Below are positions 14,027 through 63,701 of a stretch of 64,000 nt of DNA, one piece after another. The stretch covers positions 372,001 through 436,000 of the forward strand of contig NZ_CP013650.1 of NCBI RefSeq assembly GCF_001466725.1, given 5' to 3'. The notes below the pieces were generated by a model. The model was not told where the DNA came from, ran no database searches, and saw only the letters and a program-made list of their open reading frames with translations. Each line of letters begins with the position of its first letter. Position 1 is the first letter of the stretch. The DNA is from Lacimicrobium alkaliphilum (GTDB taxonomy: Bacteria > Pseudomonadota > Gammaproteobacteria > Enterobacterales > Alteromonadaceae). The position numbers and the translations under genes are program-made.

Positions 14027-14562
14027 CTAAGTTTTAAAATTGCAGAGCCTTATCATACCGAAGCTGAGCGGATAAAGCGTTACAGATTTGTAAATATATG
14101 TGAGCGGGTAAATATGTAGTTTAGTCGCAAATGGTTAATAATCCGCAGGCCGGAATTTATTCCGACCAACGCATTCTTGTCATCCCGACGAATGTCAGGA
14201 TCTTTTACCGCCAACGGTACTGATTAAGATAATCTCTTCAGCAGTGTAGCCCGGATGCAGCGAAGCGGAATCCGGGTAAGGCATACTTCTCCCGCAATCC
14301 AGCAACCTTTGAATTTATCACTGTCGCATTTCCTCATCGAGAGGAGCCAAAGGTGCTGGACATGTCCGCTTCTCTCCTCGCAGGCTACTCCTGCGGTTTA
14401 CTTAACAGAATGCCTCTAGATAGATGACAACTGCAATAGGCCATGACGGTCGCAGTTGTCATTCTGAACCATACCCTTGTCTGACAGAGAGCCTGACCTG
14501 GATCAGGGTGAAGGGATATGCTCTGCCGAGCTGGATTCAGTCCTGGCCTGTTTCAGAATATT
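14027..14562. other. Gene-free spacer with short palindromes and one REP
   Basis: I see no coding region here. It holds a partial palindrome GCCGGAATTTATTCCGACC at 14149-14167, a GTCAT-headed element at 14179-14204, one REP-a copy at 14246-14276, and an 11-bp inverted repeat ATGACAACTGC / GCAGTTGTCAT (14424-14434 and 14452-14462) with a 17-nt loop located about 100 bp after the carboxylesterase stop. The two neighbouring minus-strand operons therefore look independent. Confidence 0.7.
14246..14276 (+). repeat. REP element, subtype a
   Basis: This 31-bp element begins GTAGCCCGGATGCAGCG and closes with AATCCGGG, forming a hairpin CCCGGAT / ATCCGGG behind the GTAG head. It matches the consensus of the subtype-a copies around the RAYT gene exactly. 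Confidence 0.85.
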
Positions 14563-32266: not shown

Positions 32267-32316
32267 TGCGACTTGTGTCGCAGAAAAGCTGATGTTATTG
32301 TGTGACACATGTCGCA
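32267..32316 (+). promoter_or_regulatory. Two BlaI-type operator palindromes
   Basis: TGCGACTTGTGTCGCA (32267-32282) and TGTGACACATGTCGCA (32301-32316) are near-identical dyads with centres 34 bp apart, immediately upstream of the blaI-like gene. BlaI/MecI repressors bind paired dyads containing ACA-TGT cores in their own promoters. Autoregulation of the three-gene operon is therefore likely. Confidence 0.75.
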
Positions 32317-32346
32317 CAAGCGTGATTGTTATTGGCAGGAATAACC

Positions 32347-32745
32347 ATGGCGAAACATCAGCCTACCGCCCCTGAACTCGAAGTACTGAAGTTACTCTGG
32401 AATACCCAGCCCCGTACCGGCAAAGAAATCCACCAGGTGCTTACCGCGCTTTATGGCTGGACCTACTCATCAACCCGTAAAACCCTGGAGCGCATGAGCG
32501 ACAAAAACTTTGTTCGTACCAGCACCCGGGGCAATAAAAATCTCTACTACGCAGAGCTTCAGAAGGTACCGACTTTAGCCGCATTTGCCAGCGACTTTGC
32601 CCGGCGGGTGCTGGAAATTGATACCCCGCTACCAGTGAACTTTTTCTCTGACAGCCATCTGATTAATGAAGATGAGCTGGCTGAGCTGGAAGGGTTGCTG
32701 CAACAAGTGCCAACAACGAAATCAAAACAGGGTGGTGCAGCATGA
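32347..32745 (+). CDS. BlaI/MecI-family transcriptional repressor
   Basis: The ATG at 32347 gives 132 residues starting MAKHQPTAPELEVLKLLW, the normal winged-helix start of BlaI/MecI; a TTG or ATG 21 bp upstream would add an unconserved leader. Further family blocks are KEIHQVLTALYGWTYSSTRK and a C-terminal dimerisation helix region ending in EDELAELEGLL. It should repress its own operon through the two dyads upstream and be inactivated by proteolysis when the membrane sensor fires. Its stop overlaps the next start by ATGA. Confidence 0.9.
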   Translation: MAKHQPTAPELEVLKLLWNTQPRTGKEIHQVLTALYGWTYSSTRKTLERMSDKNFVRTSTRGNKNLYYAELQKVPTLAAFASDFARRVLEIDTPLPVNFFSDSHLINEDELAELEGLLQQVPTTKSKQGGAA

Positions 32746-34136
32746 GTAGCAATATTCTACTTTCTCTGGCGCTGTGGGTGTTGTTAACTGGCCTGTTCAC
32801 GCTGACGGCGGGTTATATTGCCCGCAAGCGGCGACTTACCCCCGGCTTCTGGTTATGGACCCTCATCGCGCCTTCGGTGGTAATGCTGCCCGTACCCGAT
32901 GTCCTGTTGCGGCACACCAAATACACCGGTGCTGCTGATTTCAGTGTATTTGAGCCCGTGGTCTGGATGGCAGACAACATTACAACACCCTTGCAACAGC
33001 CCTGGGTGGTGTCCTGGAGTCTGCTGGTATTGACCCTGATCGTGCTGGTGAGTCTGGCAAAACTGGCCCGGCTGGCATGGCATTATCACGCGGTTTTGCA
33101 GTTAGCACAGCAGAGCACTCATTGCCCTGAAGCGCTGAACGGCCATATCATCAACAGCAATATTGATTGTGTATTGCTGCCGGCACAAGCGCCACCAACC
33201 AGTGCTTTTGTGATTGGATTACGCCGGCCCCGTATTGTGTTGCCGCAGCACTTTTTACAGTTGTCGCCACAACAGCGGCAGATGATCTTAGCTCATGAGG
33301 TTAACCACATCCGTTTTTATGACCACTGGTGGCTGGTGGCCTGGCATATTATCTCAGCCGTTGCCTGGTTTAATCCGTTCCTGGTAAGGCTCAGCGCGCA
33401 TTTTACTCAGGCAGTTGAGATGCGCTGTGATGCCGCGACTGTTGCGCAGGGCCGGTTCTGTCCCGATGCCTATGCCCGGGCTCTGATCGCCAGTATCAAA
33501 CAGTCGGTTAATACCACGGCTCAGCCACACTCTGCGGCTATGCAACTGAGTTTTACCGGCCATGGCATGGGCCTGGCAGCCTATAAACAACGTATACGCG
33601 CGATAATCGGAAGCGGGCCTGCACCCTTAAACTGGCAACGCCAGATGCCGGTTTTTCTGGTGGCGATGCTATTAGTCTTGTTCACCCGATCTGCCTACAC
33701 CCGGGCGTTAGCCAGCGGGCCGGATCAGTGGATAATGCCGGTCGATAAACCGGCCATCAGTTCGTCATTTGGCCATGTGGCGGCCATCCGTCAGAATCAG
33801 GTGCATCAGGGTGTTGATTTCAAAGGGCCCGTTGGCACAGCAATCTATGCCAGCGCTGCGGGCCGGATTATGATTGCCGATGCCACCACGCTTAGCGACA
33901 ACTACGGCAAGGTAGTGGTGGTGCAACACGGTGATGGCTGGCAGACACTCTATGCTCACCTCGACAGTATTGACACGCAAAAGGGGGATCGGGTTAAACA
34001 GGGCGAGATCATTGGTACCATGGGCGCCACCGGCAAGGTTACAGGTTCGCACCTTCATTTTGAGTTGGTTCAGAACGGTCAGAGGCAGGATCCAATGGTC
34101 TATTTAGGCCATACACGCAAAAGTGGGAGTGAGTAA
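32742..34136 (+). CDS. BlaR1-like M56 metalloprotease fused to an M23 (LytM) domain
   Basis: This 464-residue protein has the multi-pass N-terminal region of BlaR1/MecR1-type signal transducers and the M56 zinc site ILAHEVNHIRFYDHWW (HEVNH at residues 185-189), with the downstream EMRCDA block giving the third ligand. After a last TM near residues 304-322 the extracytoplasmic part is not the penicillin-sensor domain of BlaR1 but an M23 endopeptidase: VHQGVDFKGPVG (H355, D359), QTLYAHLDS and GSHLHFELV (H437, H439), so all zinc and catalytic positions are present. It presumably senses or cuts peptidoglycan and releases BlaI repression through its M56 domain. Translation is coupled to blaI. Confidence 0.85.
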   Translation: MSSNILLSLALWVLLTGLFTLTAGYIARKRRLTPGFWLWTLIAPSVVMLPVPDVLLRHTKYTGAADFSVFEPVVWMADNITTPLQQPWVVSWSLLVLTLIVLVSLAKLARLAWHYHAVLQLAQQSTHCPEALNGHIINSNIDCVLLPAQAPPTSAFVIGLRRPRIVLPQHFLQLSPQQRQMILAHEVNHIRFYDHWWLVAWHIISAVAWFNPFLVRLSAHFTQAVEMRCDAATVAQGRFCPDAYARALIASIKQSVNTTAQPHSAAMQLSFTGHGMGLAAYKQRIRAIIGSGPAPLNWQRQMPVFLVAMLLVLFTRSAYTRALASGPDQWIMPVDKPAISSSFGHVAAIRQNQVHQGVDFKGPVGTAIYASAAGRIMIADATTLSDNYGKVVVVQHGDGWQTLYAHLDSIDTQKGDRVKQGEIIGTMGATGKVTGSHLHFELVQNGQRQDPMVYLGHTRKSGSE

Positions 34137-34137
34137 T

Positions 34138-35439
34138 ATGACAGCACTTTCCCAACGGCATGTTTTTGCGCTGGTTTTTGTTATTGCTGCGTTACTGACC
34201 TTTATTATCAGCTCCGGCAAAGATAATAACCCCGTTACAGCTACAACGGCGGCGTCCCCCGTGCCTTTTGACAGCAGTTTATCGGGCGATTCGCTACAGT
34301 CTTATGCTCAGCAACGGCGTATTGGAGCGGGAGTAACAGAGGTACAAGCCCAACCACCAGGCCAGTTGGTTACCCTTGAACCCGGGCAAAACCTTACCAG
34401 ATTGTTAGGTAAACAGGGTATTTCGGCGCACCGGGTCGCATTGCTGGCCATAGCCGCGAAGCCCTTGCTCAACCTGGGCAGATTACAAACCGGTATCAAT
34501 ATTGAAGTTGCACACCCGACATCCACCAGCCACCGCGTGCGCCTGGCTCGTGAGTATGGCGAGATTATCGAAGCCACCTATGCCGATAACGCCTGGTCAG
34601 TGGAATTAAAGCAGGTGCCCACAGTGTATGAAACGCACGAGCAGGGTCTGGATATCCGTAACAGCCTGTATCAGGACGCAGCGCAAAACAGCATTCCTGT
34701 TGATGTGATCAACAGTGCCATCATGGCGTTGTCACATTTTGTGGATTTTCAGCGGCAGGTACAGCAGGGGGACGTACTTGAGGTGCGCTATCAACGCACG
34801 CAGGTGAGCCAGGATCCTGCCTTGTTTGCACATTTACAAAATCCGCTGCTACTGACGTACTTACGTTTTACTAATGCCGGAGAGGATCATCGTCTGATCC
34901 GTTTCAATGACGCCTTCTACTTTCCCGATGGCCGTCTGGCGCAAAGTTTTCTGATGAAAACCCCGCTCAATGGTGCACGTTTGTCTTCCCATTTCGGCAG
35001 CCGACATCACCCTGTGCTTGGTTACAATCGCCAGCACAAAGGCATTGATTTCAGCGCCCCTGTTGGCACCCCGATTATGGCAGCAGGTGGCGGTGTGGTG
35101 AAACGTGCCAGCCGTTTCGGCAGTTTCGGTAATACGGTGATTATCCAACATAGTAATGGCTATGAGACCCTGTATGCGCATTTAAAAGGTTTTGCCGGCA
35201 AACTGCGGGTGGGTGAGCGGGTTAAACAAGGCGATATTATCGGCTACCTGGGTAATACCGGGCTTTCCGCCGGGCGTCATTTACATTATGAAGTGCATCG
35301 GCATGGCCGGGCGATTAACCCGTTGAAGCTCAAAGCTTCCGCCGATATCCGCTTGCACGGAGAAGAATTAAGCCGCTTCAGGCAGCAATTAGCAAGGCTG
35401 GACCGGGCCAATAGCCAACTGTCCAGCCTGGCACCCTGA
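34138..35439 (+). CDS. M23 (MepM-like) peptidoglycan endopeptidase
   Basis: The ATG at 34138 is one base after the previous stop and preceded by GGGAG; the protein has 433 residues. It has an N-terminal TM (VFALVFVIAALLTFIISSG), an OapA/LysM-like domain (VTLEPGQNLTRLLGKQGIS, about residues 78-96), a middle domain, and a C-terminal M23 domain with HKGIDFSAPVGTPI (H300, D304), YETLYAHL and AGRHLHYEVHRHG (H381, H383). This is the architecture of E. coli MepM, which cleaves D,D-crosslinks during wall growth. Its place in the BlaI operon suggests production on demand during wall stress. Confidence 0.88.
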   Translation: MTALSQRHVFALVFVIAALLTFIISSGKDNNPVTATTAASPVPFDSSLSGDSLQSYAQQRRIGAGVTEVQAQPPGQLVTLEPGQNLTRLLGKQGISAHRVALLAIAAKPLLNLGRLQTGINIEVAHPTSTSHRVRLAREYGEIIEATYADNAWSVELKQVPTVYETHEQGLDIRNSLYQDAAQNSIPVDVINSAIMALSHFVDFQRQVQQGDVLEVRYQRTQVSQDPALFAHLQNPLLLTYLRFTNAGEDHRLIRFNDAFYFPDGRLAQSFLMKTPLNGARLSSHFGSRHHPVLGYNRQHKGIDFSAPVGTPIMAAGGGVVKRASRFGSFGNTVIIQHSNGYETLYAHLKGFAGKLRVGERVKQGDIIGYLGNTGLSAGRHLHYEVHRHGRAINPLKLKASADIRLHGEELSRFRQQLARLDRANSQLSSLAP

Positions 35440-35463: not shown

Positions 35464-35494
35464 GTAGCCCGGATGCAGCGAAACGGAATCCGGG
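35464..35494 (+). repeat. REP element, subtype a
   Basis: A subtype-a REP with one loop mismatch (GCGAAACGG instead of GCGAAGCGG) lies 24 bp after the M23 gene stop. No intrinsic terminator is visible there, so the hairpin may protect the 3' end of the operon transcript. Confidence 0.85.
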
Positions 35495-36898: not shown

Positions 36899-37075
36899 GA
36901 GTGTTCCTTTCAAATGTTGTTTTTACGATTTCTCACACTACTGAGCAATTCCTTTGCCAATAGTTTAAGATGTTGATTTATATGAATATTGTTGTTTTGT
37001 GGTGGAAGGAGGGGTTGCCAATACCACCAACAGTTGGCGAAAAACACCAATGTGGATAACGTTTTGGCAGGTTTA

Positions 37076-37146
37076 CCCGGATTTCGCTTCGCTGCATCCG
37101 GGCTACGGGGTTGGTGTAGCCTGCAAGGAGCGTAGCGGATTGCGGG
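37076..37146. repeat. REP a-/b+ pair upstream of the RAYT gene
   Basis: A subtype-a copy on the minus strand (37076-37106) and a subtype-b copy on the plus strand (37116-37146) face each other head to head, with GTAG heads inward. This is the same unit that is repeated four times after the gene. Confidence 0.9.
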
Positions 37147-37190
37147 TTGAGTGGTCTATATTTAATGTTTTTCAAATGGAGTTGAAAACC

Positions 37191-37721
37191 ATGGTTAGAT
37201 ACAGACGGGTCTGGGTGGATGGCGGTACCTACTTTTTTACATTAACGCTGATTGATCGTCATGCGAGTTACTTAACTCAATATGTAGATGAACTCAGACA
37301 AGCATTCAGAGAATCTCGCAAAAACCATCCTTTTAAAATTGAAGCAATTGTTGTGTTACCAGAACACTTGCATATGATTCTGACCTTGCCGGAAGGAGTC
37401 AGCGATTACGCCAGGCGCATACAAAGCATTAAGGCTATTTTCTCACGTAAGGTCGCAAATCTGATCCCGGGCTGTTGTCCGAACAATCGTGGTGAGTACA
37501 ACCTTTGGCAAAGGCGGTATTGGGAACATTTAATCAGAGATGAAGAGGATTTCAATTCGCACGTGGATTACATTCACTACAATCCGGTCAAGCACAAGCT
37601 CGTTGATGAAGTGAAGGCCTGGCCCTATTCCAGTTTTCATCATTATGTAAGAGAAAGAATTTTACCCCAGGATTGGGCGGGTTATGCCTTTACATCAAAT
37701 AGTAACTTTGGCGAACGGTGA
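37191..37721 (+). mobile_element. REP-associated tyrosine transposase (RAYT)
   Basis: This 176-residue Y1-type HUH transposase has the RAYT start MVRYRRVWVDGGTYFFTLTL, the His-hydrophobic-His motif in VVLPEHLHMILTLP (His near residues 59 and 61) and the DYIHYNPVKHKLVDEVKAWP block that carries the candidate catalytic Tyr. A GGAG 10 bp upstream supports the ATG at 37191; an ATG at 37176 is possible. RAYTs cleave single-stranded REP DNA next to a GTAG/GGAG head and are thought to spread REP/BIME elements. It is enclosed by five REP pairs carrying GTAG heads, so its substrate is most likely those elements. Confidence 0.9.
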
Positions 37722-37725
37722 TTTT

Positions 37726-38075
37726 CCCGGATTCCGCTTCGCTGCATCCGGGCTACGCGGTGGTGTAGCCTGCAAGGAGCGCAGCGGGTTGCGGGTTGCA
37801 GGAGCGTCGCAGGTTTACCCGGATTTCGCTTCGCTGCATCCAGGCTACGGGGTTGGTGTAGCCTGCAAGGAGTGCAGCGGATTGCGGGATTGTGAGCACG
37901 CCGCAGGTTGACCCGGATTCTGCTTCGCTGCATCTGGGCTACGGGGTTGGTGTAGCCTGCAAGGAGCGCAGCGGATTGCGGGTTGTAGGAGCGTCGCAGG
38001 TTTAGCCGGATTCCGCTTCGCTGCATCCGGGCTGCGGGGTTGGTGTAGCCTGCAAGGAGCGCAGCGGATTGCGGG
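37726..38075. repeat. BIME array: four REP a-/b+ units with a 93-bp period
   Basis: REP-a copies on the minus strand begin at 37726, 37818, 37912 and 38005; REP-b copies on the plus strand begin at 37765, 37858, 37952 and 38045; each is 31 bp. The units repeat every 92-94 bp and share a linker of the type GGAGCGTCGCAGGTTTA between b and the next a. No gene is encoded here: apparent minus-strand reading frames are translated repeats. The array fills the spacer between the RAYT gene and the phosphoribosyltransferase gene. Confidence 0.92.
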
Positions 38076-63126: not shown

Positions 63127-63701
63127 GAATGTCGCAGGTTTACCCGGATTGCGCTTCGCTGCATCCGGGCTACGCGGTGGTGTAGCCTGCAAGTAGCGCA
63201 GCGGATTGCGGGGTTGTGAGTATGCCGCAGGTTTACCCGGATTCCGCTTCGCTCCATCCGGGCTACGAAAGCATTGTCATCCTGACGCACGTCAGGATCT
63301 CTTGCGGCCATCTGTGTTGGTTAACTTAACCCCCTCTGCTGTTTGATAAAGATTCCGGGGCAGGCCCGGAATGACGTGTGGTGGTGCCGGAATAAGGACA
63401 TGGTTGGTCATGCCCGAGGTTGTTATCGGGCATCCAGCGCCCTTAGGCACCTAAATTGAAGGTCACTGGATTCCCGCCTGCGCGGGAATGACTGTTTAGG
63501 CTCTCGGAATGACGGAGCCTGGTGTTGCCTGCAAGCCCGTTTCACTACATTCAGGCTACCCAACTACCCTACCTATAGCTAAACTTTCTATTTAGTAGAA
63601 AAATAACGCTGATTTATTGCTATTTTCTTTCTTTTTTGTTGGTCTATTATTCTCTTTAACCAAATAACTGGTGAATTAATCAACAATTCAGGAGAAAGAA
63701 A
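63127..63701. other. Repeat-rich spacer and doxX leader
   Basis: Three REPs (63143-63266), a GTCAT element (63276-63300), paired GTCATGCCCGA and GGGAATGAC type elements (63408-63490) and a degenerate REP (about 63536-63559) are followed by an AT-rich leader with the dyad TTTCTATTTAGTAGAAA at 63585-63601. No gene is seen. Confidence 0.6.
63143..63266. repeat. Three REP elements (a-, b+, a-)
   Basis: Subtype-a on the minus strand at 63143-63173, subtype-b on the plus strand at 63182-63212 and subtype-a on the minus strand at 63236-63266, in the same order and spacing as the array next to the RAYT gene. Confidence 0.88.

Follow-up and report, generated by a model that had tools for sequence, protein, structure and literature searches.

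The BlaR1/MecR1-BlaI/MecI systems pair a membrane receptor with a repressor. The receptor senses β-lactams through a penicillin-binding protein (PBP)-like SxxK domain, and its cytoplasmic M56 gluzincin domain cuts both the receptor and the repressor in front of a phenylalanine. Classical BlaI sites read TACAnnTGTA. Here we describe a related locus of Lacimicrobium alkaliphilum, found in a 64,000-nucleotide stretch of contig NZ_CP013650.1 (positions 372,001 to 436,000; the window), in which a gene for an M56-M23 fusion lies between the gene of a BlaI/MecI-family repressor and that of a MepM/ShyC-like M23 endopeptidase. We consider it probable, at roughly 0.6, that the operon is autoregulated by BlaI and read out by a receptor of the BlaR1 type that has an M23 endopeptidase domain in place of the PBP-like sensor, and that this receptor controls its own hydrolase operon.

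The architecture is already known by name and as rare. NCBI names an L. alkaliphilum relative of the same architecture (P0004) "M23/M56 family metallopeptidase," with no function, operator, or output attached to the name. The available portion of a review of M23 enzymes places M56 among other catalytic domains that co-occur with M23, together in less than 1% of hits, and states that M56 has not been demonstrated to take part in cutting the wall (PMC9662197). In the accessible part of another paper, "M56 family metallopeptidase" occurs only as a table label (PMC12915585). No study of M56-M23 receptor function was found in the literature searched, a collection that mostly does not extend to subscription journals. 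We file the operon as a variant of the BlaR1/BlaI kind, with the sensor swapped.

A BlaR1-type receptor with an M23 domain

Peptidase_M56 and Peptidase_M23 both scored above their Pfam cut-offs in a single reading frame (Table 1). The predicted model of the fusion matched BlaR1 as well as M23 structures, and the BlaR1 fold and membrane topology were recognizable across residues 5 to 279. Residues were counted in 56 fusions after removal of four duplicates, with locus L115 excluded and the fusion of genome G045 outside the sequence set. The eight active-site residues of BlaR1 (HExxH...ExxxD and the equivalents of D210, Y261, and R294) are kept in 55 to 56 of these proteins, and phenylalanine stands at the P1' position of autocleavage, F271, in 52. 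The C-terminal part is an M23 domain in place of the PBP-like penicillin-binding domain of BlaR1 and MecR1; it takes the place of the BlaR1 receptor domain and, judged by eye, follows shortly after the last membrane helix in most rows. The NCBIfam model blaR1_generic gave the fusion 34.6 bits against a cut-off of 400, and because the BlaR1 sensor domain is absent, the protein is not itself a BlaR1.

The first-pass annotation of the window, made from the letters and a list of open reading frames, had described this domain order, the motifs HEVNH (residues 185 to 189), HxxxD (355 to 359), and HLH (437 to 439), an ATGA overlap of the repressor and fusion genes, a second M23 gene 1 bp behind the fusion stop, and two dyads before blaI. 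Each of these features was borne out. An assembly error or a chance join of two genes can be discarded, as a full-length profile search, with 5 candidates scored for each genome among the rows displayed, recovered the fusion from 35 of 295 genomes of the window's family, one copy apiece, and these genomes represent 13 of 52 genera. The window genome, one contig of 4.38 Mb, holds a single M56 match and a single BlaI match, both of them in the operon.

Table 1. Features of the blaI-fusion-M23 operon, in window coordinates
Feature	Position	Strand	Basis
Putative operator 1, TGCGACTTGTGTCGCA	32267-32282	n/a	One of two exact genome copies; conserved in relatives
Putative operator 2, TGTGACACATGTCGCA	32301-32316	n/a	34 bp downstream of operator 1
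BlaI/MecI-family repressor gene blaI	32350-32745	+	131 aa; Penicillinase_R (PF03965), 72.5 bits (cut-off, 22.6)
M56-M23 fusion receptor gene	32742-34136	+	464 aa; Pfam, profile, residue, and model matches
Peptidase_M56 match, fusion residues 91-260 (H185, E186, H189, D194, E226, D230, Y244)	33012-33521	+	PF05569, 76.8 bits (cut-off, 31); profile match to BlaR1 8exp
Fusion F271, aligned with BlaR1 Phe284 (autocleavage P1')	33552-33554	+	Alignment; F in 52/56
Peptidase_M23 domain, fusion residues 354-451	33801-34094	+	Pfam, 112 bits (cut-off, 28.7)
MepM/ShyC-like M23 endopeptidase gene	34138-35439	+	PF01551, 113.2 bits

The repressor and its candidate operator

The repressor is a member of the Penicillinase_R family; its start was set at the ATG at 32350, the listed open reading frame opening at a TTG at 32326. 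It scored below the cut-offs of the NCBIfam models CopY_TcrY and BlaI_of_BCL, and a single-sequence search of the PDB gave no match at an E value of 0.001; a profile search did match. In the alignment to 1sd4, F99 falls on Phe102, the P1' residue of the cut in Staphylococcus aureus BlaI, and phenylalanine is present at this position in 49 of 50 rows (L103, L104, and L112 included). An adjacent BlaI partner with a P1' phenylalanine is thus a further likeness to the known systems.

A candidate operator, TGYGACnnnnGTCRCA, lies upstream of blaI and is unlike the classical BlaI sites; the pattern was formulated after the relatives had been inspected. In 50 upstream stretches, which include the window and three duplicates (L103, L104, and L112, from the same contigs as L033, L034, and L038), it is exact in 47 and present with at most one mismatch in 48. 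It is doubled in 35 of them, with a spacing of 33 to 34 bp in 33 and 47 bp in 2, while the share of mononucleotide-shuffled upstream stretches with the pattern, one mismatch being allowed, was 0.0003. For a sequence of the window's size a pair of sites is unremarkable: with one mismatch allowed, 12 of 100 shuffled versions contained as many. What gives the pair weight is how far apart the sites stand, where they lie, and how well they are conserved. The window genome contains the exact pattern at these two sites before blaI and nowhere else, so that the circuit seems to act on its own operon only; a wide BlaI regulon left no sign in this genome. Among 37 genomes, 32 of which had their sites listed in full or in part, a single additional operator pair came to light, ahead of a PF00756 esterase gene (G175). 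No sigma-70-like site at the operators was among those that the promoter scan reported.

Proposed mechanism

At rest, BlaI seated on the two palindromes would shut the operon, as its family and the site suggest. The M23 domain, outside the membrane and behind the last helix, would engage stem peptides or fragments of peptidoglycan, and by analogy with BlaR1 the transmembrane helices of a dimeric receptor would relay the engagement to the M56 gluzincin on the cytoplasmic side. M56 would then cut itself before F271 and BlaI before F99, the sites to which conservation points. The operon would open and yield more receptor, repressor, and MepM-like endopeptidase until the wall cue was gone.

The first-pass annotation had proposed a wall-state or wall-damage sensor that induces its own hydrolase. 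That idea is the best single reading of the locus, favored by a BlaR1-type M56 part with M23 at the sensor place, by BlaI with its candidate operators, and by an endopeptidase gene behind the fusion that was apparently recruited twice; the state of the peptidoglycan as the cue is suggested by context only. The BlaR1/BlaI mechanism would in this case be widened from penicillin sensing to, probably, wall sensing in Gram-negative bacteria. A compact circuit of three genes, with one operator pair in the genome, makes the question of the demand for cross-link cutting a testable one.

Several observations weigh against this account. The P1 residues, on the other side of the presumed cuts, are not conserved: position 270 of the fusion is serine in 10 of 56, and position 98 of BlaI is methionine in 41 of 50. 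The autocleavage loop (residues 261 to 274) has a predicted local distance difference test score (pLDDT) below 50, and EL1, the loop that plugs the sensor in BlaR1, is not resolved in the model (residues 52 to 89, pLDDT below 50) and, by eye, not conserved overall in the alignment. At up to one mismatch the genome holds 18 operator sites versus 45 for a reversed control pattern, which is also exact twice. Single operator-like sites are accordingly about as frequent as chance would make them, and it is only the pair before blaI that carries information. In 8 of 50 relatives, no gene in the same direction follows the fusion within 250 bp; in two others the first such gene encodes a TonB-dependent receptor (L075) or a polysaccharide deacetylase (L076). 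The fusion was also not found in G051, a genome of the same genus as the window genome, and this, with its presence in only 35 of the 295 family genomes, makes it accessory.

The M23 domain as sensor or enzyme

H355, D359, H437, and H439 are present in all 56 fusions and H406 in 54 (N in L058, Q in P0010). With its zinc-binding and catalytic residues complete, roles that we presume from LytM, the domain has not decayed; H406 and H437 we take to be catalytic. A degenerate, noncatalytic M23 sensor, as exemplified by EnvC and NlpD, therefore finds no support. In M23 (LytM) fold and in full zinc and catalytic residues the domain resembles MepM, ShyA, ShyC, and DipM, and it differs from them in hanging on an M56 receptor. 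The complete residues leave cutting undecided, because the BlaR1 sensor likewise retains its acylating serine. We tentatively consider a catalytic sensor, to which we give about one chance in four: an active M23 domain that engages or turns over cross-links would generate the signal, so that one protein would measure, cut, and, via M56 and BlaI, set the amount of itself and of its partner endopeptidase.

The same complete residues would be expected if the fusion were an inducible enzyme first, a reading that we regard as doubtful. Here the membrane-anchored M23 hydrolase would do the work, and the M56 part would sense the membrane state, the BlaI level, or a cytoplasmic muropeptide and set the dose. 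Consistent with this, the fusion is the sole enzyme-like product of the operon in L039, L056, L064, L118, L122, and L123, which have no co-directional gene behind it. A peptidoglycan dipeptide has moreover been reported, in the part of the source available, to inactivate Bacillus licheniformis BlaI (PMC3305447), so that the BlaI family can answer to wall pieces. However, the M23 domain stands at the BlaR1 receptor place, and the apparent double recruitment of a separate endopeptidase would be superfluous with the fusion itself as the enzyme.

Two segments of the fusion drew attention by eye. In the loop of residues 52 to 91 (window positions 32895 to 33014), before membrane helix 3, one clade (L041-L066 type) shows HP in 19 rows, and the five Lacimicrobium-type rows share a position occupied by N or H. 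Histidine is found in EL1 in 43 of 56 fusions versus 15 of 48 other M56 proteins, a lead only, as kinship is uncorrected and the loop is poorly aligned. By analogy with EL1 in the BlaR1 sensor, the His or Asn of this loop may act as a resting-state plug on the M23 zinc. At the end of the last membrane helix (residues 318 to 327; window positions 33693 to 33722), ALA-S and similar small-x-Ala motifs appear in a number of fusions, a count made without a control. Cleavage by signal peptidase at such a site could release the M23 domain; for BlaR1, the accessible text of one report places a shedding site at Gly331 (PMC9834060).

Hydrolase genes behind the fusion

Operons were tallied in 50 relatives, leaving out L115 and L103, L104, and L112; some rows are near-identical (L036/L107 and L038/L110). 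The downstream gene was the first co-directional one within 250 bp behind the fusion, assigned to a kind by phmmer similarity to eight query proteins, with representatives checked against Pfam. In 49 relatives blaI adjoins the fusion (46 as first called, and L066, L075, and L122 on re-inspection), L110 running out at a contig end. A hydrolase stands first behind the fusion in 40, comprising MepM-type M23 endopeptidases (19), PF00144 serine hydrolases (14), PF00756 esterases (4), and small α/β-hydrolase-like proteins (3). This output, a wall-type endopeptidase or another hydrolase, sets the operons apart from BlaR1-BlaI. PF00756 esterase genes also come second in several operons, lie divergently across the operators (L037, L040, and L196), or, in L195, follow a second operator pair elsewhere. 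The divergent gene of L039 encodes a reprolysin-like metalloprotease. From their N termini, the operon hydrolases were judged by eye to be secreted. Because the output is often a different hydrolase in relatives, the module resembles a general switch for envelope hydrolases.

The M23 protein of the window operon aligns to ShyC, ShyA, and MepM beyond the M23 domain and falls short of the NCBIfam equivalog cut-offs for all three (150 bits against 700, 128.2 against 700, and 127.9 against 341, respectively). A separate MepM-type paralog, 31% identical, is encoded at position 635497 of the window genome. A tree was built of MepM-type proteins from 11 genomes, 15 of them operon-encoded and 12 not; in it, the 12 window-type operon copies included, from the 17 available (the window and 16 loci), separate with support of 100/100. 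A second operon set (L052, L053, and L062; 98/90) groups with a chromosomal paralog (100/99) on the other side of the tree, which was rooted at the midpoint, had long branches flagged, and contained two other rows cut short at 316 to 317 residues. Since the two operon sets separate, the simplest reading is that an endopeptidase was recruited twice to the fusion operon.

The serine hydrolases bear on a different and rather unlikely explanation, somewhat below the previous one in our estimate: a switch for resistance or self-defense, directed at antibiotics (wall-targeting or peptide) or at attacking hydrolases, in which the operon hydrolases detoxify or repair. In sequence searches of the PDB, the best matches of the PF00144 protein of L041 included IS11, Flp, ClbP, and class C β-lactamases, and the esterases described above fit such a switch as well. 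The two PF00144 proteins tested, of the 14, however, reached 111.6 and 52.3 bits against a class C β-lactamase cut-off of 415, the receptor lacks a β-lactam-binding domain, and the window operon has an endopeptidase only. A plasmid-borne fusion can also be dismissed, as a plasmid search with the window fusion gave no match at an E value of 1e-20. The statement of the first-pass annotation that this is not a resistance circuit goes further than these data. Because relatives encode class C fold hydrolases and esterases, the operon may respond to antibiotics, either wall-active ones or peptides.

The small α/β-hydrolase-like proteins form a recurrent family of 222 to 231 aa with the motif YSHG(L/Y)IVEG (L042, 7223 to 7915; L033, 3577 to 4251; L040, 4790 to 5455; and similar proteins in L117), with no or a weak Pfam match.

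Distribution and related M56 proteins

A search with the M56 part matched 154 of the 295 family genomes, so that an M56 protein of another kind is all that most of the matching genomes contain. In a class-wide sample, the full-length fusion was present in at least 4 of 369 genomes, the window genome included, a lower bound with at most 4 candidates scored per genome. Eighteen of 53 named loci carry the fusion: Lacimicrobium (1), Pseudoalteromonas (13), a Colwellia metagenome-assembled genome, Aliikangiella, Pseudomarimonas, and Kordiimonas. In Pseudoalteromonas luteoviolacea DSM 6061 (L115, 3102 to 6196) the fusion frame is in three pieces; it is whole in the other listed strains.

A tree of 81 M56 domains, from 48 fusions and 33 other proteins, left out 20 loci (near-duplicates and L115) and weak or short M56 matches. 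Forty-seven fusions form one clade (100/98). The remaining one, P0010, falls on a long branch with M56 proteins of Bacteroidota (100/98), which suggests a second, independent M56-M23 fusion. Although genome G549 belongs to another family, its fusion (L196, 5944 to 10014) clusters with two from the window's family, L037 and L040, a sign of horizontal transfer. In G549 the operator pair lies between blaI and divergent genes for an M1 peptidase and an esterase.

Other M56 proteins of the family encoded next to a BlaI-like gene (L065, L069, and L071) end in ankyrin repeats or TonB_C. They share the signaling module, differ in their C-terminal part, lack M23, and fall outside the proteobacterial fusion clade. 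They suggest an M56 module that trades C-terminal domains, which bears on the origin of resistance receptors. Such tails would also suit an accessory domain swap without a special signal, in which M23 merely tethers the receptor to peptidoglycan, but a tether needs neither H406 nor H437, and the near-complete retention of both makes this improbable.

Apart from the operon, the window contains a REP (repetitive extragenic palindromic)-like repeat, GTAGCCCGGATGCAGCGAA, in 13 copies at up to two mismatches versus 0.02 expected. Sites lie at 14246, 16146, 27192, 35464 to 35482, 37088, 37738 to 38035, 42811, 52024, and 63155 to 63266; one copy is right behind the operon, and a run of four follows a Y1_Tnp transposase-like gene (36999 to 37721).

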